In this document: positions 22,978-35,550 of the stretch, piece by piece
Position numbering within the stretch: position 1 is the stretch's first letter
Layout of the letters: every line of letters begins with the position of its first letter
NCBI RefSeq assembly: GCF_012910805.1
Contig: NZ_WTVK01000056.1
Coordinates: 1-35,550, forward strand
Reading direction: 5' to 3'
DNA: 35,550 nucleotides
DNA from: Aromatoleum evansii
GTDB taxonomy: Bacteria > Pseudomonadota > Gammaproteobacteria > Burkholderiales > Rhodocyclaceae
Notes under the pieces: model-generated
The model's database searches: none
Told to the model about the DNA's origin: nothing
Seen by the model: only the letters and a program-made list of their open reading frames with translations
Made by a program: the position numbers and the translations under genes

Positions 22978-25359
22978 TCAGCGCACGCGTTGCCACAGCA
23001 TGGCGTGCGTGACGATGTACTGATACTTGCGTGCGTGCTCGCGGATCACGAGGGGTATTTCGGCTTCGCGGCGCAACTCGAAGCCGTCGGCGCCGAGGAG
23101 CGCCTTGAGGGTGTCGGCGCTGCGCACGGCACGTTCGCCGTCCATGTAGCCGCCGAGCCAAGCGCCGCGGGGTGTGAATTGTTCCAGCCAGGTGTAGGGC
23201 GACAGGATGGCGACGACGCCGCCCGCGCGCACCAGCCCGCGCGGCCCGCCGAGGCGCCCGAGCAGCGACCTGGGGCTCGGCAGGCGGCACAGCAGGTTGG
23301 CGAGCAGCACCGCATCGTAGTCCGTGAGTTCGGCGGGCAGCGAGCAGGCGTCGGCCTGGCGGAACGCGACACGGCTGCGGTCGATGGCCGGATCGACGCG
23401 CGCCAGCAGCGGGTGGGCGAGTTCGCCTTCGTCGCGGCAGGCGTATTCGAGGACGCCTCGATCGCGCAAGGTGGCGGCCGCATCGATGAAGGAGCGGCTC
23501 AGGTCTATGCCGAGGACTTCGCCGAACATGTGTGCGAGTTCGAAGCTCGCGCCGCCGACGGCGCAACCGACGTCGAGTGCCCGGCCGCCAACGATCCCGA
23601 GTTCGCGTGCGCCTTCCATCAGCCAGCGCGCTGCACGCAGCGGGAACTGGCAGGCATCGCGGGGCCCGGACGCGTGCGGCATCTGCTCCTGCGGGCTGCC
23701 ATAGTGCAGCAGCAGGTACTCGTTGGTGATCCCGGCGCTTTCGTAGGCCTTGCCCGGCGCGCCTTCCGCATCGAGACGCACGGCACCGCCGTCGTGGGCG
23801 GCCTGCACGACGCGAAAGCCCGCGTGCTGGAAGAAGTGCGGGCGGAAATGGAAGCGCGACCACACGCTGGCCTCGTCGCCGGTCGAGATCCACGAACCGC
23901 CGAGGATCATCTGGTGCTCGCCGTCGTAGCAGGGGCTGCTGAAGTCGTCGTAGTACGGGTGGACCTGGGCCCCGGGCAGCGGATTGAACTGGTCGCCCAG
24001 CCACTGCCACACGTTGCCGAAGACGTCGCGGAAGCCTTTTGCCGTGAGCGCGCCGGCGGTGACGGGGGAGGAGGAGCCGCAGCCGAGGTTGAGGTTGAGG
24101 CCGCGTTCGTGCAGCAGGGCCGCACCGTCCGCGGCCATGACCGGATCGTCGGTGACGGCGGCGACGGGGTCGCGCAGGGCATTGTGCTCTGCTTCGCTCG
24201 GCAGGCGGCAGGGCTGGCCCAGGCGCGCGCTCAGCCACGCACAATACGCGCTGGCCTCGTGCCAATTGACTTCGGCGGGCCAGTTCCAGCGCATGTCGAT
24301 TTCCTCGAACAGCGTGCGCAGGCGGAAGCGGTGGGATCCTGCGGGGCCGTCGGGCACCCAGAACGTGGGCCACTTGATGTTGCGGTAGGTGCGCCAGGAC
24401 CAGCCGGTTTCCGACCACCACTGGCGGTCGCGGTATCCGCCGTCGGCGACGAACTGCCAGAACTCTCCGTTGCTCACGAGGCTGCGGCCCGCGCGGAAGG
24501 GCTGCACATCGACTCCGCGGCTGCCGTATTCGTTGTCCCAGCCGTAGGAGGGCCATTCGGCGGGTTTGCCGAGCTGCAGGCGGGTCGCAGCGACGGGGAG
24601 GAGTTCCATTTCCGGATAGTCGCGTCCGGGAATCGGCGGGAATGCCGCGGGGCTCGCTGCGGAGGAATGTGGCGGCATCCATCCCGCTGGCCGCCGGACG
24701 AGCCGCAGCGGCAGCTCGTGGATCAGCACGGACGAGGTCTCGAGATGGATGCGCTCGTGCTCGAACCCCATGAACAGCGCCCACAGGGGATCGTTCTGCG
24801 TGATCGGCGGATGGCCTTCGGCGAGTCCGGGGTGCTCGTCGATGACACGGCGCACCAGCGCGTACACTGCCTTGCGGTAGGCGTGGGCCTCATCGAACGC
24901 GGGCCAGCGCATCGCGTTCTTCGACATGTCGTCCCAGCGCATCTCATCGACGCCGGTTTCGAAGATGCGTTCGAAATACGGGTTGAGCGGCGCAGGGATC
25001 AGCCCCGCCACGCGCAGCTTGTTCACGTAGAGCGCAGGGGGGTGGCAGTAATAGAACACCATCGGATGTCGCAGATGATGGTACGGCGGGCGATAGAAGG
25101 CTTCCTCGCCGATCAGTCCGGAGAACAGCAGCTCGGTGAGCGTCCAGCCGTTGTCGAAGTAGGCACGGACCTGCTCGCGGGTGCAGGTGGCCAGATTCGG
25201 TAGCGGCAGCGAGGTGAGCACGCCATCGGTCGTCCTGCCCGGGCAGCGCTCGGGCGGCAAGCCGGTCCACCAGTCCGGGCTTCGGACGGGGCCAAGGCGT
25301 TCGTCGAAGCGTCCTTCAATATTCTGTCGCCAGCTTTCGTCGGTCAGGTCGTCGGTCAT
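22978..25359 (-). CDS. ovoA: OvoA: 5-histidylcysteine sulfoxide synthase / N-methyltransferase (ovothiol)
   Basis: 793-residue three-domain enzyme. OvoA joins cysteine to histidine C5 using O2 and Fe(II), and its C-terminal domain N-methylates the mercaptohistidine ring to give ovothiol A. The DinB-like N-terminal domain contains the iron motif H201-E-R-I-H205-L-E207 (HxxxHxE). The FGE-sulfatase-like domain (about 270-520) holds FWQFVADGGYRDRQWWSE, WPAEVNWHEASAYCAWLS, RLPSEAEHN, FGNVWQW and GGSW. The SAM-methyltransferase starts near residue 592 with ALDVGCAVGGASFELA. The full length and both halves match bifunctional OvoA rather than EgtB, which lacks the methyltransferase. The start at 25359 is the family-like beginning of the DinB region. 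No OvoB-type PLP lyase is in the window. Confidence 0.95.
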   Translation of the reverse strand: MTDDLTDESWRQNIEGRFDERLGPVRSPDWWTGLPPERCPGRTTDGVLTSLPLPNLATCTREQVRAYFDNGWTLTELLFSGLIGEEAFYRPPYHHLRHPMVFYYCHPPALYVNKLRVAGLIPAPLNPYFERIFETGVDEMRWDDMSKNAMRWPAFDEAHAYRKAVYALVRRVIDEHPGLAEGHPPITQNDPLWALFMGFEHERIHLETSSVLIHELPLRLVRRPAGWMPPHSSAASPAAFPPIPGRDYPEMELLPVAATRLQLGKPAEWPSYGWDNEYGSRGVDVQPFRAGRSLVSNGEFWQFVADGGYRDRQWWSETGWSWRTYRNIKWPTFWVPDGPAGSHRFRLRTLFEEIDMRWNWPAEVNWHEASAYCAWLSARLGQPCRLPSEAEHNALRDPVAAVTDDPVMAADGAALLHERGLNLNLGCGSSSPVTAGALTAKGFRDVFGNVWQWLGDQFNPLPGAQVHPYYDDFSSPCYDGEHQMILGGSWISTGDEASVWSRFHFRPHFFQHAGFRVVQAAHDGGAVRLDAEGAPGKAYESAGITNEYLLLHYGSPQEQMPHASGPRDACQFPLRAARWLMEGARELGIVGGRALDVGCAVGGASFELAHMFGEVLGIDLSRSFIDAAATLRDRGVLEYACRDEGELAHPLLARVDPAIDRSRVAFRQADACSLPAELTDYDAVLLANLLCRLPSPRSLLGRLGGPRGLVRAGGVVAILSPYTWLEQFTPRGAWLGGYMDGERAVRSADTLKALLGADGFELRREAEIPLVIREHARKYQYIVTHAMLWQRVR

Positions 25360-26330: not shown

Positions 26331-27437
26331 TCAGGCGACGGTTTCGCTGTCGAGCGTCGGGTAGTCCGTATAGCCTTCGGCTCCGCCGCCGTAGAAGCGG
26401 TCCGTGCGCGGCGGGGTGAGCGGGGCGTTCTCGCGCAGGCGGCGGACAAGGTCGGGGTTGCTGATGAAGGCCTTGCCGAATGCGACGAGATCCGCCTTGC
26501 CCTCGGCCACCGCCTGCATGGCCAATTCGCGCGTGTAGCCGTTGTTGACCATCCACGCGCCGGCAAAGCGGCTGCGCAGCGCGTTGAAGTCGAACGGACG
26601 GGCGAGGTCCGCGGGTTCGCGCTTGCCACCGGTTTCGCCCTCGATGACGTGGATGTAGGCGAGCCCCAGCGGCGCGAGCCGTTCGACGACATGGTTGTAG
26701 AGCGCTTGGGGATCGCTGTCGCGCGGGGTGCCATTGCCGCTGGTCAGGGGGCTGAGACGGATGCCCGTGCGGCCGGCACCGATCTCGCCGCACACGGCGT
26801 CCATAACCTCCAGCAGGAGGCGCGCGCGGTTCTCGATGCTGCCGCCGTAAGGGCCGTTGCGATCGTTCACGCTGTCGCGCAGGAACTGTTCGAGCAGGTA
26901 GTTGTTGGCCGCATGGACTTCGACACCGTCGAATCCGGCCTCCATCGCGAGACGGGCTGCGCGCCGGTAGTCGGCGACGATGCCCGGAAGTTCGTCGTCC
27001 CGCAGGGCACGCGGCGTGGAGACGGGAACGAAGCCGTCGCGGGTGAAAGTCTTGGCCCCGCTTGCGGGGCGGTCGGTGCTCGATACCGGCGCAGCGCCCT
27101 CGGGCAGCAGCGAGGTGTGCGAGATGCGACCGACGTGCCACAGTTGGATCACGATGCGTCCGCCGGCGGCATGCACGGCATCGGTGACCTTGCGCCATCC
27201 TGCGACCTGTTCGGCGCTGTGGATGCCCGGGGTGTCGAGATAGCCGTGAGCCATCGGATTGATCGGACTGGCCTCGGTGACGATGAGGCCGGCGCTGGCC
27301 CGCTGGCGGTAGTACTCGACGGTGAGCGGGCCGGGCACGTTGCCGGGGAGGGCGCGGTTGCGCGTCAGCGGCGCCATCACGATGCGGTTGGACAGGTCGA
27401 TGTCGCCGATGCGAACGGCGTCGAACAGGCTTTTCAT
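26331..27437 (-). CDS. Old Yellow Enzyme (NemA-like alkene reductase)
   Basis: 368-residue FMN-dependent flavin oxidoreductase that reduces activated C=C bonds and related electrophiles with NAD(P)H. It has NRIVMAPLTRNRA at the N-terminus, QLWHVGRISH, the substrate-binding His-Asn pair in VEVHAANNYLLEQFL, and the phosphate-binding ADLVAFGKAFISNPDLV. It ends at the C-terminal YGGGAEGYTDYPT block typical of the NemA/XenB-like class. The ATG at 27437 has AGGAG upstream. No NemR-like repressor gene adjoins it, but a 14-bp perfect palindrome lies about 120 nt upstream. It is convergent with the SDR gene, 3 nt apart. Confidence 0.92.
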   Translation of the reverse strand: MKSLFDAVRIGDIDLSNRIVMAPLTRNRALPGNVPGPLTVEYYRQRASAGLIVTEASPINPMAHGYLDTPGIHSAEQVAGWRKVTDAVHAAGGRIVIQLWHVGRISHTSLLPEGAAPVSSTDRPASGAKTFTRDGFVPVSTPRALRDDELPGIVADYRRAARLAMEAGFDGVEVHAANNYLLEQFLRDSVNDRNGPYGGSIENRARLLLEVMDAVCGEIGAGRTGIRLSPLTSGNGTPRDSDPQALYNHVVERLAPLGLAYIHVIEGETGGKREPADLARPFDFNALRSRFAGAWMVNNGYTRELAMQAVAEGKADLVAFGKAFISNPDLVRRLRENAPLTPPRTDRFYGGGAEGYTDYPTLDSETVA

Positions 27438-27924: not shown

Positions 27925-28974
27925 GTGCTGATGAGTCTGGTTCGCGGTTTGTCCCTGGCATACATGCCGATGTCGTCCGTCCGGGAATGCGCGCCGCAGT
28001 GGTGGGATGAGGTGCTCGGTGTCGCGATCCTTGGCGAGGGGGATGCGGGCTGCGTGCCGTCCGGAGTTCCGCTCGCCCGGGTCGCGACCCCCGTGCTGGC
28101 CGGACCGCGCTCCGTGTGCGAGGTGTGGCGTGCCGGCAGGCCGACAAGGGCAGGCGTGCACGGACGGGTGCGTTATCGCTGCACGGAGAGCATGCTGTTC
28201 GGGGCCATCGCGCTGGACGAGGGCGAGATGCCTGTGGACGCGGACGGCGTTTCTGCACTGCAGCGGGCCACCCGCGCAGCGTACCGGGAGGTGTTCGATC
28301 TGCTCGACGAGGCGGGTTATCCCGCGCTCTTCCGTGCCTGGAACTACTTTCCGGCGATCAATGCCGTGATCGACGGCAGCGAACGCTACTGGCAGTTCAA
28401 CGCCGGCCGCCAGGACGCCTTCGGGGCCGGCGGCCGCAGCACGATAGGCAGCGTGCCCGCTGCGTGTGCGCTCGGTTCGGCGTCGGGGCCATTCACGCTG
28501 TACTTCATCGCGCTGCGAGATGCGCCGCAGGCGATCGAGAATCCGCGCCAGGTGTGCGCGTATCATTACCCCCGGCAGTACGGTCCGCGCAGCCCGACCT
28601 TCGCGCGCGCGAGCCTCGCGCCGTCGCTGACATCGCCGACGCTGTTCGTATCGGGCACGGCAAGCATCGTCGGGCACGAAACCCTGCATCGGGGCGACGT
28701 CGTCGCGCAGACGGCCGAGTCCTTCCGCAACATCGAGGCGGTCCTCGGCGAGGCGCGGCGGGCAGCTCCGGCAGGCATCGCGCTCGCTCCGGGGGATCTC
28801 GCGTACAAGGTCTATGTGCGCCACGCGGGCGACCTCGACGCCGTGCGGAGATGTGTTCGCGAGCATCTCGGCGATGCGGTGCCGGTGGTGTACGTGCAGG
28901 CGGACGTGTGTCGCGAGGACCTGCTGGTGGAAGTCGAGGCCTCGGGCGGACATGCGATGGAGGATTGGCGATGA
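27925..28974 (+). CDS. Chorismatase (FkbO/Hyg5/XanB2-like), hydroxybenzoate supply
   Basis: 349-residue protein of the chorismatase family. These enzymes remove pyruvate from chorismate to give dihydroxycyclohexadiene or hydroxybenzoate products; XanB2 makes 3- and 4-hydroxybenzoate for xanthomonadin pigment. Recognisable blocks are CTESMLFGAIAL, the LFRAWNYFPAINAVI...ERYWQFNAGR region, and the C-terminal TASIVGHETLHRGDVVAQTAE. The GTG at 27925 has AGGAAAG six nt upstream; ATG 27931 is in frame. Its stop overlaps the MipA-like start as ATGA. Together with the ketosynthase and dehydratase genes, it points to an aryl-polyene starter unit. Which hydroxybenzoate isomer forms cannot be read by eye. 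Confidence 0.82.
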   Translation: MLMSLVRGLSLAYMPMSSVRECAPQWWDEVLGVAILGEGDAGCVPSGVPLARVATPVLAGPRSVCEVWRAGRPTRAGVHGRVRYRCTESMLFGAIALDEGEMPVDADGVSALQRATRAAYREVFDLLDEAGYPALFRAWNYFPAINAVIDGSERYWQFNAGRQDAFGAGGRSTIGSVPAACALGSASGPFTLYFIALRDAPQAIENPRQVCAYHYPRQYGPRSPTFARASLAPSLTSPTLFVSGTASIVGHETLHRGDVVAQTAESFRNIEAVLGEARRAAPAGIALAPGDLAYKVYVRHAGDLDAVRRCVREHLGDAVPVVYVQADVCREDLLVEVEASGGHAMEDWR

Positions 28975-29825
28975 GGGCAGGAGCGGGGAGCCGGTGGCTG
29001 CAGCGCGGACTGCTCGCCGCGCTGCTGGCGCCCGCGTTCGCTCCGGTCGCCGCGGCGGCGGAAAAGCCCCTCTGGGAACTCGGTGCGGGACTCACCGTGC
29101 TGCAGTTTCCCGCCTACCGCGGTTCGGACGAGGATCGGTTGTTCGTGCTGCCCGTGCCCTACGTGGTTTATCGTGGCGAATTCCTGAAGGCCGACCGGCA
29201 GGGGATCCGCGGCACCTTCTTCGACAGCGACCGCGTCGAGCTGAGCCTCAGCTTGGGGGCTTCCCCACCGGTCAGCAGCGATCGCGTGAAGGCGCGCGAA
29301 GGCATGCCCGACCTGAAGCCGACCGTCGAGATCGGACCCTCGCTCGATGTGCGGCTGTGGCGTTCGGCCGACGAGCGCCTGCGCCTGCGCACGCGCCTGC
29401 CCTTGCGTGCGGGCTTCACGGCGGAAGGCGGCCCCGAATCGACGGGCTGGCAGTTCACTCCGCAGCTCAACCTGGACTGGCGTGATCCGGCCGGACTGGG
29501 CGGCTGGACGCTCGGCGTGATCGCCGGCCCGGTCTATGGAGACCGGCGGCAGCACCGCTATTTCTACACGGTCGAGGCGAGCGAGGCGACGCCGCAGCGT
29601 CCGGCCTACGACGCCCGTGGCGGCTACGGCGGCACGCAGGTGCTGGCGGCGTTGTGGAAGCGCTATCCGGGGTTGTGGGTCGGGGGTTTCGTGCGCTACG
29701 ACAGCCTCGCCGGCGCGGTGTTCGAGGACAGCCCGCTGGTGAAGCGCAAGGACTATTTCGCCGCCGGTTTCGCGCTGACCTGGGTGCTGGGCGAATCCTC
29801 GCGTCGAGTCGAAGCGGATGAGTAG
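28971..29825 (+). CDS. MipA/OmpV-family outer-membrane protein
   Basis: 284-residue outer-membrane beta-barrel type protein of the MipA/OmpV family. A signal peptide spans about residues 1-30 (LLAALLAPAFAPVAAAA, cleavage before EKP). The mature N-terminus has WELGAGLTVLQFPAYRGSDE followed by PVPYVVYRG, the family's hallmark region, and the protein ends in an aromatic-rich beta segment (FAAGFALTWVLGESSRRVE). It is translationally coupled at both ends, with an ATGA overlap with the chorismatase and an 8-nt overlap with the acyltransferase. The E. coli MipA is a murein-synthesis scaffold; here a role in pigment export or anchoring in the outer membrane is only inferred from position. Confidence 0.85.
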   Translation: MRAGAGSRWLQRGLLAALLAPAFAPVAAAAEKPLWELGAGLTVLQFPAYRGSDEDRLFVLPVPYVVYRGEFLKADRQGIRGTFFDSDRVELSLSLGASPPVSSDRVKAREGMPDLKPTVEIGPSLDVRLWRSADERLRLRTRLPLRAGFTAEGGPESTGWQFTPQLNLDWRDPAGLGGWTLGVIAGPVYGDRRQHRYFYTVEASEATPQRPAYDARGGYGGTQVLAALWKRYPGLWVGGFVRYDSLAGAVFEDSPLVKRKDYFAAGFALTWVLGESSRRVEADE

Positions 29826-30630
29826 CGGCGGCCGGACGCGGCAGGGGGCGCTGCGGCGCGTGCGCGAGTATGTGCTGCTGTACCTCGGCCTCGGTTACCT
29901 GGGAGTGATCTGCCTGCTGTGGACGCCGTTCGCTATGGTGTTCTACCCGCTGCTGCCGGCGCGCGCCGGCCGGCGCCTGGGGCGCTTCGTCATCAACCGT
30001 GGGTTCAACAGCTACATCCGCTTCCTGACCCTCATCGGCGCATGCCGATTCGACCTTGCGGCGCTCGACAAGCTGCGCGGGCAGGGGCCGCTGATCCTTG
30101 CGCCGAATCACCCGAGCCTCCTGGATGCGGTAATGGTGATCTCGCGCCTGCCCGACGTCGCCTGCATCATGAAGGCCGGGCTCATGGACAACATCTTCTT
30201 GGGCGCCGGCGCACGCCTCGCCCGTTACATCCGCAACGATTCGCCGCTGCGCATGGTGGGCTGCGCGACGAACGACCTGTCGGCGGGCAGCTTCCTGCTG
30301 GTATTCCCCGAGGGCACGCGCACGACGCGCATGCCCGTCAATCCGCTGATGAGCAGCGTAGGGCTGATCTCACGGCGCTCGGGGGTGCCGGTGCAGACGA
30401 TCTTCATCGAAACCGATTCGCCCTATCTGTGCAAGGGCTGGCCCCTTTTCCGCAAGCCGGAGATGCCCGTCGGCTACCGCGTGCGGCTCGGGCGCCGCTT
30501 CGATCCGCCTTCCAGCGTGCAGCCTTTCATGGCCGAACTCGAGCGCTATTTCGTTGCCGAACTCGAGGATGCCGTTCTGCCGCGACCGCCGGAGAGGGAC
30601 GGTGGCACAATGTCGTCGTCCACGATCTGA
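29818..30630 (+). CDS. Lysophospholipid-type acyltransferase
   Basis: 270-residue PlsC-like acyltransferase. A hydrophobic N-terminal segment (about 20-45) is followed by the catalytic HX4D motif, His98-P-S-L-L-Asp103, and the FPEGTRT motif (about 163-169) for the acyl acceptor. In aryl-polyene/xanthomonadin clusters such acyltransferases are thought to attach the polyene acid to a glycerol or sugar lipid anchor. The ATG at 29818 overlaps the preceding gene by 8 nt. The acyl donor and acceptor are not evident. It is followed, after 20 nt, by the glycosyltransferase gene. Confidence 0.9.
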   Translation: MSSGGRTRQGALRRVREYVLLYLGLGYLGVICLLWTPFAMVFYPLLPARAGRRLGRFVINRGFNSYIRFLTLIGACRFDLAALDKLRGQGPLILAPNHPSLLDAVMVISRLPDVACIMKAGLMDNIFLGAGARLARYIRNDSPLRMVGCATNDLSAGSFLLVFPEGTRTTRMPVNPLMSSVGLISRRSGVPVQTIFIETDSPYLCKGWPLFRKPEMPVGYRVRLGRRFDPPSSVQPFMAELERYFVAELEDAVLPRPPERDGGTMSSSTI

Positions 30631-30650
30631 ACCCTGTTTCGCACGCTGCC

Positions 30651-31469
30651 ATGACGCCCCATCAGGTCACACTGCCGAAATCCGCGCCGCTGCCCAGTCC
30701 GGTCGAGGCGCCCACCGCCACGCATCTGGTGCTGATCCCGAGCTACAACCCGGGGCCGAAGGTGTTCGAGACGGTGCGCGCCGCTCGGCACCAGTGGATG
30801 CCCGTATGGGTCGTCGTCGATGGCAGCACGGACGGCACCACCGACGGCTTGCGCCGCATGACCGAGGAGGATCCGGGCCTGCGCGTGATCGTCCTGCCGA
30901 AGAACTCGGGCAAGGGAGCCGCAGTGCTGCATGGCATCGAGCTGGCTGCGAAGCAGGGCTTCACGCACGTACTGACGATGGATTCGGACGGCCAGCATCC
31001 CGCGGAGCTGATCCCCGACTTCATGGCGGCGTCGGCGGCACGACCGGACACGATGGTTCTCGGCCTGCCCGTCTTCGACGCCAGCGCCCCGGCGCTGCGC
31101 GTGCGCGGTCGCAAGCTGTCGAACTGGTGGGCGAACCTCGAGACGCTGTGGATGGGGATCGGTGATTCGCTGTTCGGCTTTCGCGTGTATCCGATCGCCC
31201 CGCTGGCCAAGGTCATGCACGGCCAGCGCTGGATGCGCCGCTTCGATTTCGACCCCGAGGCCGTGGTGCGCATGGCGTGGCTGGGGGTGCGGCCGGTGAA
31301 TCTGCCGGCGCCGGTCAAGTACTTCCGCCCCGACGAAGGAGGCGTGTCCCATTTCAACTACGCGCGCGACAACCTGCTGCTGACATGGATGCACACGCGC
31401 CTGTTCTGTGGCTTCCTAGTACGCCTGCCCGTCCTGCTCGCGCGACGCTTCAGATCATCCCGCCGTTGA
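30651..31469 (+). CDS. Family-2 glycosyltransferase
   Basis: 272-residue GT-A fold, DPM/GT2-type glycosyltransferase without large membrane domains. LVLIPSYNPG opens the fold, VVDGSTDGT is the nucleotide-binding loop, and MDSDGQHP carries the DxD metal site; MGIGDSLFGFRVYP and MRRFDFDPEAVVRM follow. Likely adds a sugar to the lipid acceptor of the aryl polyene (inference from cluster homology). ATG 30651 lies 20 nt after the acyltransferase. The gene overlaps the convergent FabG gene by 20 nt. Confidence 0.9.
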   Translation: MTPHQVTLPKSAPLPSPVEAPTATHLVLIPSYNPGPKVFETVRAARHQWMPVWVVVDGSTDGTTDGLRRMTEEDPGLRVIVLPKNSGKGAAVLHGIELAAKQGFTHVLTMDSDGQHPAELIPDFMAASAARPDTMVLGLPVFDASAPALRVRGRKLSNWWANLETLWMGIGDSLFGFRVYPIAPLAKVMHGQRWMRRFDFDPEAVVRMAWLGVRPVNLPAPVKYFRPDEGGVSHFNYARDNLLLTWMHTRLFCGFLVRLPVLLARRFRSSRR

Positions 31470-32169
31470 TCGAGATCACCTGGCCGGTGATGTAGGCGGC
31501 CTGGGTCGAGGCAAGGAAGCCGACCAGGTCGGCGACCTCTTCCGGCTTGCCGGCGCGCTTCATCGGCACGATGCGCGCGATCGCATCCGCGTCGAAGGCG
31601 TCTTCGCTCATCGCCGTGTCAATGATGCCGGGCGCGACGACGTTCACCGTGACCCCCCGGCTCGCGAGTTCCTGTGCGAGCGATTTGCTGGCCGAATGCA
31701 GGGCGCCCTTGGCGGCCGCGTAGTTGGCCTGGCCGCGATTGCCGGTGATCGCCGCCACCGAAGAGATCGTGATGATGCGCCCCCAGCGCGTGCGGAGCAT
31801 CGGCATCGTGAGCGGCTGGGTGACGTTGAAGAAGCCGTTCAGCGACACGTCGATGACGCGCTGCCACTGGTCGGCGCGCATGCCGGGGAAGACGGCGTCG
31901 TCGTGGATGCCGGCGTTATTGACGAGGATCTGCAGCGGGCCGTCAGCACCGATCGCGTCGAGTGCGGCCGCCGTGGCGGCGGCGTCGGTGACGTCGAACG
32001 CGACGGCCTCGGCGCTGCCACCCGCGCTGCGGATTTCGTCGGCGAGGGCCTCGGCCTTGTCGGCATTGCGGTTCGCATGGATGAAGACGTGGTGGCCGTC
32101 GCCGGCGAGACGGCGGCAGATCGCCGCGCCGATGCCGCCGCTTCCGCCGGTGACGAGTGCGCGTTTCAA
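31450..32169 (-). CDS. fabG: 3-oxoacyl-ACP reductase (FabG-like)
   Basis: 239-residue SDR ketoreductase. TGGSGGIG (7-14) is the cofactor loop, NNAG is at 84-87, and the catalytic residues Ser137 (TISSVAA), Tyr150 and Lys154 (YAAAK) are all present; the C-terminal ITGQVISINGGM is typical of FabG. The TTG start at 32169 has GGGAG seven nt upstream and overlaps the dehydratase stop as TTGA. Expected to reduce beta-keto intermediates in polyene assembly; it is not the housekeeping FabG by context. Confidence 0.9.
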   Translation of the reverse strand: MKRALVTGGSGGIGAAICRRLAGDGHHVFIHANRNADKAEALADEIRSAGGSAEAVAFDVTDAAATAAALDAIGADGPLQILVNNAGIHDDAVFPGMRADQWQRVIDVSLNGFFNVTQPLTMPMLRTRWGRIITISSVAAITGNRGQANYAAAKGALHSASKSLAQELASRGVTVNVVAPGIIDTAMSEDAFDADAIARIVPMKRAGKPEEVADLVGFLASTQAAYITGQVISINGGMI

Positions 32170-32642
32170 GATGGGCTCCCGCTGGGGCCGGCGCCCAGGG
32201 CGCCCGCGTCGAGGATCACCGCGGCACGGCCGGAAACGAGCACGTGGCCGTCCGCAGCGACGGTGAAGGAGTAGAGGATCTGGTTGTCGTTGCCGGTGAT
32301 GCGCTCGGCACCGATGTAGAGGTCTGATGTCACCGTATCCAGCCGTTCGACCGCGATCTCCACCCCGCGCACGCTCGCGAGGTAACCCGCGCGCGGGGCA
32401 TCCCCGGCGTTGGCGACCAGGGCGCCATGCACCGCCATCGCCTGCGCGGCATACTCGATGGCGCTCGTCGCAGGCAGGCCGTCAGCATCGCGCAGCGGGT
32501 TGTCGGCGTCGCGGTGACTGGTCGCCCGGCAACGGATCGCGTCGGCATCCCATGCTTCGACGCTGGCGAGCAGACACATCCTGCCGTGGTGCGGAATGCG
32601 TGCGGCGATGCCGTCGTGGTCGAGGGTGGTTGGCAGGGTCAT
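32166..32642 (-). CDS. Hotdog 3-hydroxyacyl-ACP dehydratase (aryl-polyene type)
   Basis: 158-residue hotdog-fold protein. ARIPHHGRMCLL near the N-terminus, HRDADNPLR (likely catalytic His about position 43) and the hotdog helix SAIEYAAQAMAVHG match the dehydratases of aryl-polyene clusters (ApeI/ApeP type) rather than FabZ. Would dehydrate 3-hydroxyacyl-ACP to trans-enoyl-ACP, leaving the conjugated double bonds. The ATG at 32642 overlaps the chain-length-factor stop as ATGA, and its own stop overlaps the FabG start, so four genes are translated in a coupled series. Confidence 0.82.
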   Translation of the reverse strand: MTLPTTLDHDGIAARIPHHGRMCLLASVEAWDADAIRCRATSHRDADNPLRDADGLPATSAIEYAAQAMAVHGALVANAGDAPRAGYLASVRGVEIAVERLDTVTSDLYIGAERITGNDNQILYSFTVAADGHVLVSGRAAVILDAGALGAGPSGSPS

Positions 32643-33436
32643 GCCGTGTAGTCCACCGCGAGGCGGGCGTGGGCGAGGTAGTCGAGCACGACACGGCCGC
32701 TGCGGCTTGCCGCGATCGCCTCGAGCAGCGGAAGGCTGCGTGCGGCGGGAATCGAGCACCGCAAGGCGTCGAGGGCCGGGTCGGCGAGCGTGTCGGGCGG
32801 GGCGTCGGTGAGCTTGGCGGCGAGGCGTCCGCAGCTGTTCGCTTCCCGCTCGGGGGTCAGCAGCAGGGCGACGCCGAAGGCATCCGGGATGGGGCGGGCC
32901 GCCCGCAGCGGCTCCGGGTAGTCTGCGTCGTAGGCGAGCAGCAGGCAGGGCTGGCCGTCGAACCGGACCTGGGCGAGCGCTTCAAGGAGGCCCGCGCCGA
33001 AGCTGCCGTCATAGGCGCACAGTACGGCCGAGGGGGCGGTCGCGCCGGTGGCGATGCCCCAGTAGCCGGCGGCGGCGTTATGCACGGAATTGTGAAAACG
33101 CGTCGGCGAGATCTGGCGGTCGTCGGATGCGAGGGTTTCGCAGATCTGGTGGCAATTGACCCCGTCGCCCCCGGAGGACGAGAACACCGTTGCAAGCCCG
33201 GACGGATCCATACCGGCCGCTGTCGTCGCCTGCAGGCCGATACCGAGCGCGAGCTTCACGACCCGCACGGCACGCCGGCGTTCGGCCGGCGGCAGTTGCT
33301 CGGGGGCGTTGAGTACGGTCTTTTCGGGGCTCCACGCGGCGTCGCCCGCGAGGATCGCGGCGCAGGCCGGCCAGTCGGCCATGCCCGGCCCGATCAGGCC
33401 GATGCTGCGGATCCAGGCCGCGGGCGGATTCGTCAT
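32639..33436 (-). CDS. Ketosynthase-like chain-length factor
   Basis: 265-residue protein with a KS N-terminal-like fold but only about two thirds the size of a ketosynthase. It has FSSSGGDGVNCHQICETLA and FHNSVHNAAAGYWGIATGA, blocks seen in aryl-polyene 'beta-ketoacyl synthase-like' partners (ApeC type). Aligned by eye with the neighbouring KS from the shared Pro (position 135 here, 154 there), the nucleophile Cys falls on Asp143. So it is probably a non-catalytic partner of the KS. Start: ATG 33436 (GAGG upstream) was chosen; ATG 33448 in frame overlaps the KS stop as ATGA and could also be used. Confidence 0.82.
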   Translation of the reverse strand: MTNPPAAWIRSIGLIGPGMADWPACAAILAGDAAWSPEKTVLNAPEQLPPAERRRAVRVVKLALGIGLQATTAAGMDPSGLATVFSSSGGDGVNCHQICETLASDDRQISPTRFHNSVHNAAAGYWGIATGATAPSAVLCAYDGSFGAGLLEALAQVRFDGQPCLLLAYDADYPEPLRAARPIPDAFGVALLLTPEREANSCGRLAAKLTDAPPDTLADPALDALRCSIPAARSLPLLEAIAASRSGRVVLDYLAHARLAVDYTA

Positions 33437-33444
33437 GGTGGGCC

Positions 33445-34632
33445 TCATGCCGGGCTGCCGAGGATGAGGCTGCAGTTCGTGCCGCCGAATCCGAAGGAAT
33501 TGCTGAGAACGCGGCGTACCGGTTGCCGACGCGTCGCGAGTACGTAATCGAGCCCCTCTTCGGGATCGGTGGTGCCGGCGCCCGCCGGAACGAAGCCGTC
33601 GCGGATCGCGAGCGCGGCTATCACCGCCTCGATGCCGCCGGCGGCGCCGAGGGTGTGGCCGGTTGCGCCCTTGGTCGAACTGCAGGGCGTCGCGTCGCCG
33701 AAAAGCCCCTTCACCGCCTTGCCTTCGGCGGCGTCGTTGCTCGGCGTGGCCGTGCCGTGGAGGTTGATGTAGTCGATGTCGCGCGCAGCGAGGCCGGCAC
33801 GCGCCAGCGCCGCATCCATCGCCTGGCGCGCACCGCGGCCCTCGGGGTGCGGCGAGGACATGTGGTAGGCGTCGCTGGACTCTCCGTAGCCGAGCAGCAG
33901 GATCGCATCGCGCGGCATGGAGGCCGGCACGGGCTCGACCAGCGCGAAGGCGGCCCCTTCGCCGATCGAAATACCGTCGCGGGCGCGATCGAAGGGCCGG
34001 CAGGCCCGCGACGAAGTGAGCTCCAGCGAATTGAAGCCGTACAAGGTCGTGAGGCACAGCGAGTCGACGCCTCCGACGAGGGCCGCGTCGATCAGCCCGC
34101 TCGCGATCATGCGCGCCGCGGAGGCGAACACCTTGGCGCTGGACGAGCAGGCGGACGAGACGACCACCGCGGGTCCCTTCAGTCCGAACCAGTGCTGCAC
34201 GAAGTCGGCGAGCGAGAAGGTATTGTGCGTGCCGGCGTAGTTGAAAGTGGCCGGGAGGGCGCCGGTGTCCGGGGCTCGGTGGCGGTAGGCGAGTTCGGTT
34301 TCCAGGATGCCCGAGGTGCTCGTACCGAGGAACACGCCGATGCGATCCGCGCCGTGGCGGGACATCGCCTCGCGGACCGCATCGGCGAAGCCGTCCTGCA
34401 CCAGGCCGAGCTGCGCGAGCCGGTTGTTGCGGCAGTCGAAGCGCGCCAGCGAGGCGGGGAGCACTTGGTCGTCGGTGCCTTCGACCTCGCCGATCCATGT
34501 GGGCAGGGATACGGTCTCGAAGTCGCAGGGCTTGAGCCCGGAGCGGCCGGCGAGCATCGCTTCGCGCAGCGGCTCCAGTCCGCGTCCGAGGCAGGACGAG
34601 GCGGTGTAGGCGGAAATCAGCAACGGATGCAC
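33445..34632 (-). CDS. Beta-ketoacyl-ACP synthase (aryl-polyene type)
   Basis: 395-residue FabF-type condensing enzyme. Catalytic Cys162 in VVSSACSSSAK, His292 in NLHGTATPSND, and His326 in TKGATGHTLGAAG are in place, with Lys321, and NSFGFGGTNCSL closes the fold. It extends the aryl starter by malonyl units together with the chain-length factor downstream. The GTG at 34632 has GAGG upstream. The gene lies 118 nt after the deacetylase gene and its stop abuts the next gene, which suggests an operon. Functional rather than housekeeping FabF by context. Confidence 0.92.
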   Translation of the reverse strand: MHPLLISAYTASSCLGRGLEPLREAMLAGRSGLKPCDFETVSLPTWIGEVEGTDDQVLPASLARFDCRNNRLAQLGLVQDGFADAVREAMSRHGADRIGVFLGTSTSGILETELAYRHRAPDTGALPATFNYAGTHNTFSLADFVQHWFGLKGPAVVVSSACSSSAKVFASAARMIASGLIDAALVGGVDSLCLTTLYGFNSLELTSSRACRPFDRARDGISIGEGAAFALVEPVPASMPRDAILLLGYGESSDAYHMSSPHPEGRGARQAMDAALARAGLAARDIDYINLHGTATPSNDAAEGKAVKGLFGDATPCSSTKGATGHTLGAAGGIEAVIAALAIRDGFVPAGAGTTDPEEGLDYVLATRRQPVRRVLSNSFGFGGTNCSLILGSPA

Positions 34633-34750
34633 GGTGCCTCGGCGGCTCGAAAAGAAAGCATTTTATCAAAAGGTCGGAGTGGCTCGCGGACGGCTCGTTG
34701 CGGCTCGGCAGCAGGCGGAGGAGCGCGGTCGTTTCGGGAGCCCCCGGGGC

Positions 34751-35550
34751 TCAGGGAATGGCTGAAGCGAGCGTGACCGGCTCGAGGCCCTCGCGCGCAA
34801 ATCGCACGAGCAGGCGCGGCAGCACCTCGAGAATCACCGGCGCACCCGTGCTCGTCCGGGCGGCATTGCCGTCGTGCAACAGCAGGATGTCGCCCGCGCT
34901 GAGGTTCTCCGACAGGCGCCGGCGGACGATCGCGGCGTCGCCCGTACGGGTGTCGTAGGCGCGTCGCGTCCATGATGCGAGTTGCAGGTCCAGGCGGGCG
35001 AGGACCGGTTCCAGGAACGGGTTGCGCAGGCCCGCCGGGGCGCGGAAGAAGCGCGGCTGCCGGCCGCAGACGTCGGCGATGGTGTCCTGCGCGGCGCCGA
35101 TTTCGCGCGCCAGCCAGCGCGGGCCGCGCAGCGAGAAGGTCTTGAGGTGGTGTTCGCTGTGGTTCTCGACGGCGTGGCCGCGCGCGACGATCTCGCGCGC
35201 AAGTGCCGGATGCTCGCGCACGAGCCGGCCGATGACGAAGAAGCTCGCGCGGGCGCCATGGGCGTCGAGGAGATCGAGCACGTACGGCGTGACCTCCGGG
35301 TCGGGGCCGTCGTCGATCGTGAGCGCAATCTCCCTCCGCGCGACCGCGGCGGCTGGCAGTCGCGTCCAGTTCGTCCCCAGCAGGGTGCAGCGCGGAAACA
35401 GCCCGGCCGCGGTGAGCAGGCCGTGGTTGGCCGCGACGGCTGCGGCGGCCCACGGCCAGGCGTCGGGTCGCAGGGCGATGCCCGCGGCCGCTGCGGCGTG
35501 CAGTGCGGCCGAAAAGCGGATCAGGGTGCCGGGGCGCCAGGGACTGTCTC
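34751..35550 (-). CDS. Polysaccharide deacetylase (NodB type), 5' end beyond window
   Basis: Open frame from the right edge to a TGA at 34751, about 266 residues visible. At the 5' side there is a hydrophobic Ala-rich stretch (about residues 12-48 of the visible part) that may be a membrane anchor. The NodB domain then begins with IALTIDDGPDPEVTPY, the catalytic Asp-Asp; SFFVIG follows, HAVENHSEHHLKTF holds the metal His pair, FFRAPAG is motif 3 and LLLHDG is near the C-terminus. It likely removes N-acetyl groups from a sugar lipid or polysaccharide. Its start is not visible. Possibly the first visible member of the minus-strand pigment operon. Confidence 0.88.
   Translation of the reverse strand, partial: DSPWRPGTLIRFSAALHAAAAAGIALRPDAWPWAAAAVAANHGLLTAAGLFPRCTLLGTNWTRLPAAAVARREIALTIDDGPDPEVTPYVLDLLDAHGARASFFVIGRLVREHPALAREIVARGHAVENHSEHHLKTFSLRGPRWLAREIGAAQDTIADVCGRQPRFFRAPAGLRNPFLEPVLARLDLQLASWTRRAYDTRTGDAAIVRRRLSENLSAGDILLLHDGNAARTSTGAPVILEVLPRLLVRFAREGLEPVTLASAIP

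Follow-up and report, generated by a model that had tools for sequence, protein, structure and literature searches.

What do the genes at the right end of a contig of Aromatoleum evansii make, and from which starter acid? The stretch examined here (the window, 35,550 bp) is the whole of contig C282 (NZ_WTVK01000056.1), from a genome of 5.94 Mb in 330 contigs. The original prediction read positions 27925 to 35550 as an aryl-polyene pigment cluster with a chorismatase as its starter enzyme, arranged in two convergent operons and incomplete at the right end. The gene families and their order match the published arc cluster, and we conclude that this is very probably an aryl-polyene pigment cluster of the arcuflavin/xanthomonadin type, encoded at a single locus in an Aromatoleum-clade species, and that the window holds its left half.

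We located all nine predicted genes at the right end of the window by open reading frame (ORF) positions and profile matches; Pfam matches were above the curated cut-offs for eight of them, the hotdog protein being the exception. The plus strand carries, in order, an arcB-like chorismatase of the FkbO/Hyg5/XanB2 family (27925-28974; PF21168, E = 1.2e-37), an arcC-like MipA/OmpV outer-membrane protein (28971-29825; PF06629, E = 1.6e-41), an arcD-like lysophospholipid-type acyltransferase (29818-30630; PF01553, E = 5.2e-11), and an arcE-like family 2 glycosyltransferase (GT2) (30651-31469; PF00535, E = 1.7e-19). The chorismatase could start either at GTG 27925, behind AGGAAAG, or at ATG 27931, and it overlaps the arcC-like gene by 4 bp. 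The minus strand carries an arcH-like FabG-type ketoreductase (KR) with a TTG start (31450-32169; NF004200, 368.5 bits against a cut-off of 273), an arcI-like hotdog dehydratase (32166-32642; assigned as ApeP-like from position, conservation in relatives, and a match to PF22817 below the cut-off), an arcJ-like short ketosynthase-like chain-length factor (CLF) (32639-33436; PF13723, E = 6.3e-26, with a pairwise alignment and a tree), an arcK-like ketosynthase (KS) (33445-34632; NF006618, 552.6 bits against a cut-off of 407), and an arcN-like polysaccharide deacetylase (34751-35548; PF01522, E = 1.5e-27). The deacetylase ORF is open at the contig end and is probably short of only the first codon or so, the continuation lying, by synteny, on contig C77; a PADLOC run on it gave no match. 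Neighbors on the same strand either share 4 to 8 bp or are separated by gaps of 8 to 118 bp, as in two operons. The operons converge, the 3′ ends of FabG and GT2 sharing 20 bp (31450-31469), exactly where they had been predicted to touch.

The closest published counterpart is the pair of arc loci in Azoarcus sp. BH72 (azo3910-3921 and azo0253-0264). As listed in PMC3949708 (Table 1), the first BH72 locus comprises arcA (halogenase), arcB (chorismatase/XanB2), arcC (MltA-interacting protein), arcD (acyltransferase), arcE (glycosyl transferase), arcF, arcG, arcH (reductase), arcI (dehydratase), arcJ (N-terminal beta-KS domain), and arcK (KS). The second comprises arcN (deacetylase), arcO, arcP (exporter), arcQ (lolA), arcR (acyltransferase), arcS (dehydratase), arcT (AMP-ligase), arcU, and arcV (acyl carrier protein [ACP]). 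BH72 mutants with insertions in arcK or arcT lost the pigment, and ArcB made 3-hydroxybenzoate (3-HBA) in vitro (PMC3949708). The orders B-C-D-E, H-I-J-K, N, and P-Q-R-S-T-U-V are the same in BH72 as in the window and C77 together, MipA included, and the BH72 chorismatase is of the XanB2 type (PMC3949708), as is probably that of A. evansii. The two systems differ in that BH72 has two unlinked loci, as opposed to one here by synteny with the closest genome (G009); that arcF and arcG are absent here between GT2 and FabG; that arcO was not seen between the deacetylase and the exporter in G009; and that we found no halogenase match and recognized no dialkylresorcinol (DAR) locus in A. evansii.

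The window ends at the start of the deacetylase gene, and the missing right half lies on C77 of the same genome. In G009, the whole cluster is in one contiguous piece; beyond the KS, that piece matches C282 up to position 35544 and then A. evansii C77:99992-105330 at 93%. C77 ends at 105330, and synteny with G009 places the ends of C282 and C77 at the same point within about 20 bp. C77 carries an MMPL/RND exporter (PF03176, over the cut-off, about 13 residues shorter than in G009), a LolA-like carrier (PF19574, over the cut-off), a lipid-A-type acyltransferase, a second, FabA-like dehydratase (over the cut-off), an AMP-ligase (PF00501, over the cut-off), a membrane-type protein whose assignment to arcU/ApeG comes solely from its position, and an ACP (PF00550, over the cut-off), with family matches for six of the seven. 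The cluster is cut at its right end, in agreement with the predicted incompleteness. Of the right-hand genes expected, the ACP and the exporter were present, together with the AMP-ligase, and the reading survived this check; the expected ammonia-lyase was not found near the cluster. A KS with a short CLF-like partner, a FabG-type KR, two dehydratases, an ACP with an AMP-ligase, and an exporter with a LolA-like carrier are thus all accounted for.

The KS and its partner show the features of such a pair. ArcK contains a CSSS motif along with two His motifs, whereas ArcJ stops short of the C-terminal half of the KS and, in a pairwise alignment of these distant sequences, shows no Cys opposite the nucleophile of ArcK. 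ArcJ Gln156 is retained in 25 of 26 aligned rows (24 of them distinct) and may be equivalent to Gln166 of Lysobacter ORF16, a protein not aligned with ArcJ, in which a change to Ala abolished the pigment (PMC3691225). The xanthomonadin-type cluster of Lysobacter enzymogenes shares with that of A. evansii a KS with a short CLF-like partner (ORF17/16), an ACP, a KR, two dehydratases, and an outer-membrane lipoprotein carrier (ORF10); its ORF5 is annotated as a pteridine-dependent dioxygenase, a name also carried by Hyg5 structures (PMC3691225). This likeness comes from descriptions rather than sequences, and the gene order around the ORF16-17 pair varies between organisms (PMC3691225). The aryl-polyene (APE) cluster of E. 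coli CFT073, as given in Table 1 of PMC8253772, shares an ACP, a COG4648 protein, an acyl-ACP synthetase, dehydratases, an acyltransferase, a LolA-like protein, an RND exporter, a KS, and a KR. In contrast, that table lists two ACPs, a methyltransferase, a third KS (ApeR), and a thioesterase, and no chorismatase.

The order of the genes and their families suggest how the pathway would run. The chorismatase would convert chorismate to 3-HBA, which the AMP-ligase encoded on C77 would load onto the dedicated ACP. Repeated malonyl extension, reduction, and dehydration by the KS with its CLF-like partner, FabG, and the two dehydratases would then give a 3-hydroxyphenyl polyene carboxylic acid. GT2 and the acyltransferases would join this acid to a lipid anchor. 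Transport to the outer membrane would fall to the MMPL exporter and the LolA-like carrier, perhaps together with MipA, and there the yellow pigment would guard against light and oxidants.

The starter step depends on the type of the chorismatase. In alignments to Hyg5 (5ag3) and FkbO (4bps), Gly244, Cys329, and Glu336 of the window protein correspond to Gly240, Cys327, and Glu334 of Hyg5; FkbO has Ala at the first two of these positions. Glu-334 of Hyg5 is the catalytic acid, and Gly-164, Gly-231, and Cys-318 of Nat-hyg5 are the residues of type II (CH-II) enzymes (PMC7170507). We aligned the window protein with all 16 other chorismatase matches of a genome search within and outside the genus and with the protein of locus L087 from a second search; three further matches of that second search were repeats of G003, G015, and G013 at the same places and were left out. 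Gly, Cys, and Glu were retained in all 18 aligned homologues. Family and residues fit 3-HBA formation: the predicted XanB2/FkbO-family chorismatase is in place at the head of the plus-strand operon, with residues typical of 3-HBA-forming enzymes rather than those of FkbO, and the reading survived this check as well. Plasmid records, considered as a source of named references, comprised 11 records, all below 60% identity and none from Xanthomonas, and were rejected. The enzyme is best taken as a XanB2/ArcB type on the kinship of the cluster.

An FkbO-type enzyme, supplying dihydroxycyclohexadienoate as the starter of another polyketide, would be compatible with the homology of FkbO to the window chorismatase (E = 3.5e-50), but Gly and Cys stand where FkbO has its alanines, in every aligned homologue, and aryl-polyene genes lie beside the chorismatase gene; we regard this reading as extremely improbable. 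Another role would be to make 4-hydroxybenzoate (4-HBA) for ubiquinone, or a diffusible 3-HBA or 4-HBA signal, with the proximity of the pigment genes being secondary. Xanthomonas XanB2 is said to feed both pathways, 3-HBA being its diffusible factor, and expression of ArcB in E. coli gave compounds matching both 3-HBA and 4-HBA (PMC3949708). However, UbiC is present in the A. evansii genome and in all 17 genus genomes, so ubiquinone synthesis can probably proceed without the chorismatase; the enzyme is also absent from 5 of those 17 genomes, and its 4-bp overlap with arcC suggests one operon. We consider such a main role quite unlikely, and the chorismatase looks dedicated to the pigment. As an alternative starter enzyme, we also considered an ammonia-lyase. 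The single PF00221 match in the A. evansii genome is on contig C9, with none near the cluster, and 14 of the 17 genus genomes have one match each, always on a contig other than that of ArcJ or more than 700 kb away. The family was found in all five genomes without the chorismatase and in 9 of the 12 with it. Being far from ArcJ and not tracking chorismatase loss, it was rejected; a pathway that starts with a chorismatase can do without such an enzyme.

The product could differ from arcuflavin, in which the 3-HBA polyene is esterified to a DAR. In the A. evansii genome, PF04820 (Trp_halogenase) had no match, in a search that did find one beside the chorismatase of G010, and the halogenase protein of G034 as a query also gave no match, in a search without a control. 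KAS III (PF08545) had only two matches, on C278 and C294. Three ORFs flanking the C294 gene were scanned and included no carrier protein, aromatase, or other DAR-like family, and the C294 protein fits no NCBIfam model over the cut-off; the neighborhood on C278 was not inspected. A DAR locus at C294 was rejected, its neighbors being unrelated as far as scanned. Because of the lack of a PF04820 match and of a DAR-like family by the C294 gene, we predict a non-halogenated 3-hydroxyphenyl polyene, probably without DAR, although the latter is weakly held. Full arcuflavin, with DAR made elsewhere in the genome, is an unlikely alternative: gene content and order are those of BH72, in which neither arc locus includes the DAR genes, these being located elsewhere (PMC3949708), and the scarcity of KAS III genes is weak evidence against it, since C278 was not inspected and DarA was not searched for. 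A halogenase gene is itself no sure sign of product, because the pigment of BH72 is non-brominated despite the presence of arcA (PMC3949708). Among the 17 genus genomes, only G010 had a Trp_halogenase-family match near the chorismatase on its contig; this gene (G010:C99:17284-18330) lies beside the chorismatase (C99:16019-17023) in the position of arcA.

Several observations weigh against a chorismatase-fed arc-type pathway encoded at one locus. The position mapped by spacing to Gly-164 is Ala in the window protein and Gly in both Hyg5 and FkbO, and because of this Ala the chorismatase is not a standard type II enzyme or a clean Hyg5. It scored 256 bits with the NCBIfam chorismatase model TIGR04444, below the cut-off of 325, and PMC3949708 itself holds that the reaction is not accurately predictable from alignment alone. 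The sole match of the hotdog protein was to PF22817 (ApeP-like), at E = 9.7e-5 and 22.4 bits against a cut-off of 27, and no Pfam or NCBIfam model matched the ArcU protein. The adjacency of C282 and C77, and with it the single locus, comes from synteny with G009, not from reads. No DAR locus was recognized, in searches that did not include DarA, so the product may differ from arcuflavin. Finally, the enzymatic steps and the pigment are predictions from gene content, order, families, and residues.

The layout had been thought non-standard, both in its convergence and in the position of MipA between chorismatase and acyltransferase. Neither proved to be so. The order arcB-arcC-arcD-arcE, with arcC encoding the MltA-interacting protein, is already in PMC3949708, and all eight Aromatoleum-clade loci found with ArcJ (L005-L011 and L025) are convergent, including two without a chorismatase (L010 and L011); the strands of the BH72 genes were not seen. 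The overlap of GT2 and FabG is exactly 20 bp in all six genus loci measured (A. evansii, G009, G002, G014, G012, and G016). The FabG motif was not found in G034, which belongs to another genus, so no value is available there, and MipA had no match in one relative, G014. We therefore rejected layout and MipA as novelties, the order being published and the convergence recurring in relatives; the cluster is an ordinary one of known kind.

Some relatives differ between the KS and the deacetylase, where the spacing is about 5 kb in four loci (L005-L008). A 5-kb insert between these genes at L055:11719-16422 encodes an MtrB/PioB porin, a multihaem cytochrome, and a LysR regulator; the same insert is present in G002 and, by ORF lengths, in L005, placing extracellular-electron-transfer-like genes inside a pigment cluster. 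To the left of the cluster, the window encodes a full-length OvoA (22978-25359, minus strand), an ovothiol synthase with 5-histidylcysteine sulfoxide synthase and methyltransferase parts that both exceed the cut-offs of their NCBIfam models. OvoA was matched beside the pigment cluster in all six chorismatase-bearing Aromatoleum-clade loci (L005-L009 and L025) and had no match in L010, L011, or the Brachymonas locus L022. A tRNA-Gly (gcc) called by ARAGORN on the opposite strand to ovoA (23475-23559, plus strand) is probably a false positive. An old-yellow-enzyme gene (26331-27437, minus strand; PF00724, N-ethylmaleimide-reductase-like just below the cut-off) lies divergently upstream of the chorismatase; it takes the same place in L006, L008, L045, and L055 and had no match in L005, L007, L009, or L025.

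We searched a species-level genome collection with ArcJ and obtained 23 loci. The best eight, at 90 to 74%, are from the Aromatoleum clade (Azoarcus sp. Aa7 and Aromatoleum tolulyticum, toluolicum, toluclasticum, toluvorans, diolicum, anaerobium, and buckelii), and the others are from Paraburkholderia, Burkholderia, Brachymonas, and two gammaproteobacterial metagenome-assembled genomes. These identities place the window in the Aromatoleum clade. The locus of A. tolulyticum (L006) has an intact cluster. Within the genus, ArcJ is in 17 of 17 genomes and the chorismatase in 12. Outside it, the two occur together in G027, G029, G034, G058, and G059, whereas G046 and G057 have ArcJ (E below 1e-30) without the chorismatase; a further five matches to ArcJ are weaker (E of 3e-11 to 1e-3) and may be other ketosynthases. 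Three Paraburkholderia/Burkholderia genomes with ArcJ (G065, G066, and G068) had no chorismatase match, and Brachymonas (G067) had one at 46%.

The five chorismatase-free genomes (G004, G006, G007, G008, and G011) are 96 to 100% complete and form one clade on a FastTree tree of ArcJ, with a support of 0.998. This tree has 26 rows, 24 of them distinct, made up of the 20 that had a locus among 29 ArcJ matches within and outside the genus and 6 of the 23 loci from the species collection; by zero branch length and place, G006 corresponds to A. buckelii and G008 to A. anaerobium. In the records of these two species (L010 and L011), the other arc genes were matched, and there was no chorismatase match in the whole genome. 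A remnant of the gene was rejected, with matches at chance level only (E of 4.3 or higher). The E. coli APE pathway is predicted to begin with 4-HBA made by UbiC (PMC8253772), so a change of starter is possible in this clade. We tentatively suggest, as a minority view, that the clade changed to UbiC-made 4-HBA or to an acid from its own aromatic degradation, the cluster in the window being the ancestral, self-supplied form; more plainly, the pathway may have decayed there.

In full-text searches that did not cover most subscription journals, we found no paper pairing Aromatoleum with arcuflavin or an aryl polyene. The cluster described here adds the Aromatoleum clade to the bearers of arc-type aryl-polyene genes, in this case at one locus. 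The sister clade that lacks the chorismatase provides a natural setting for comparing the ways in which aryl-polyene pathways are supplied with starter acids.

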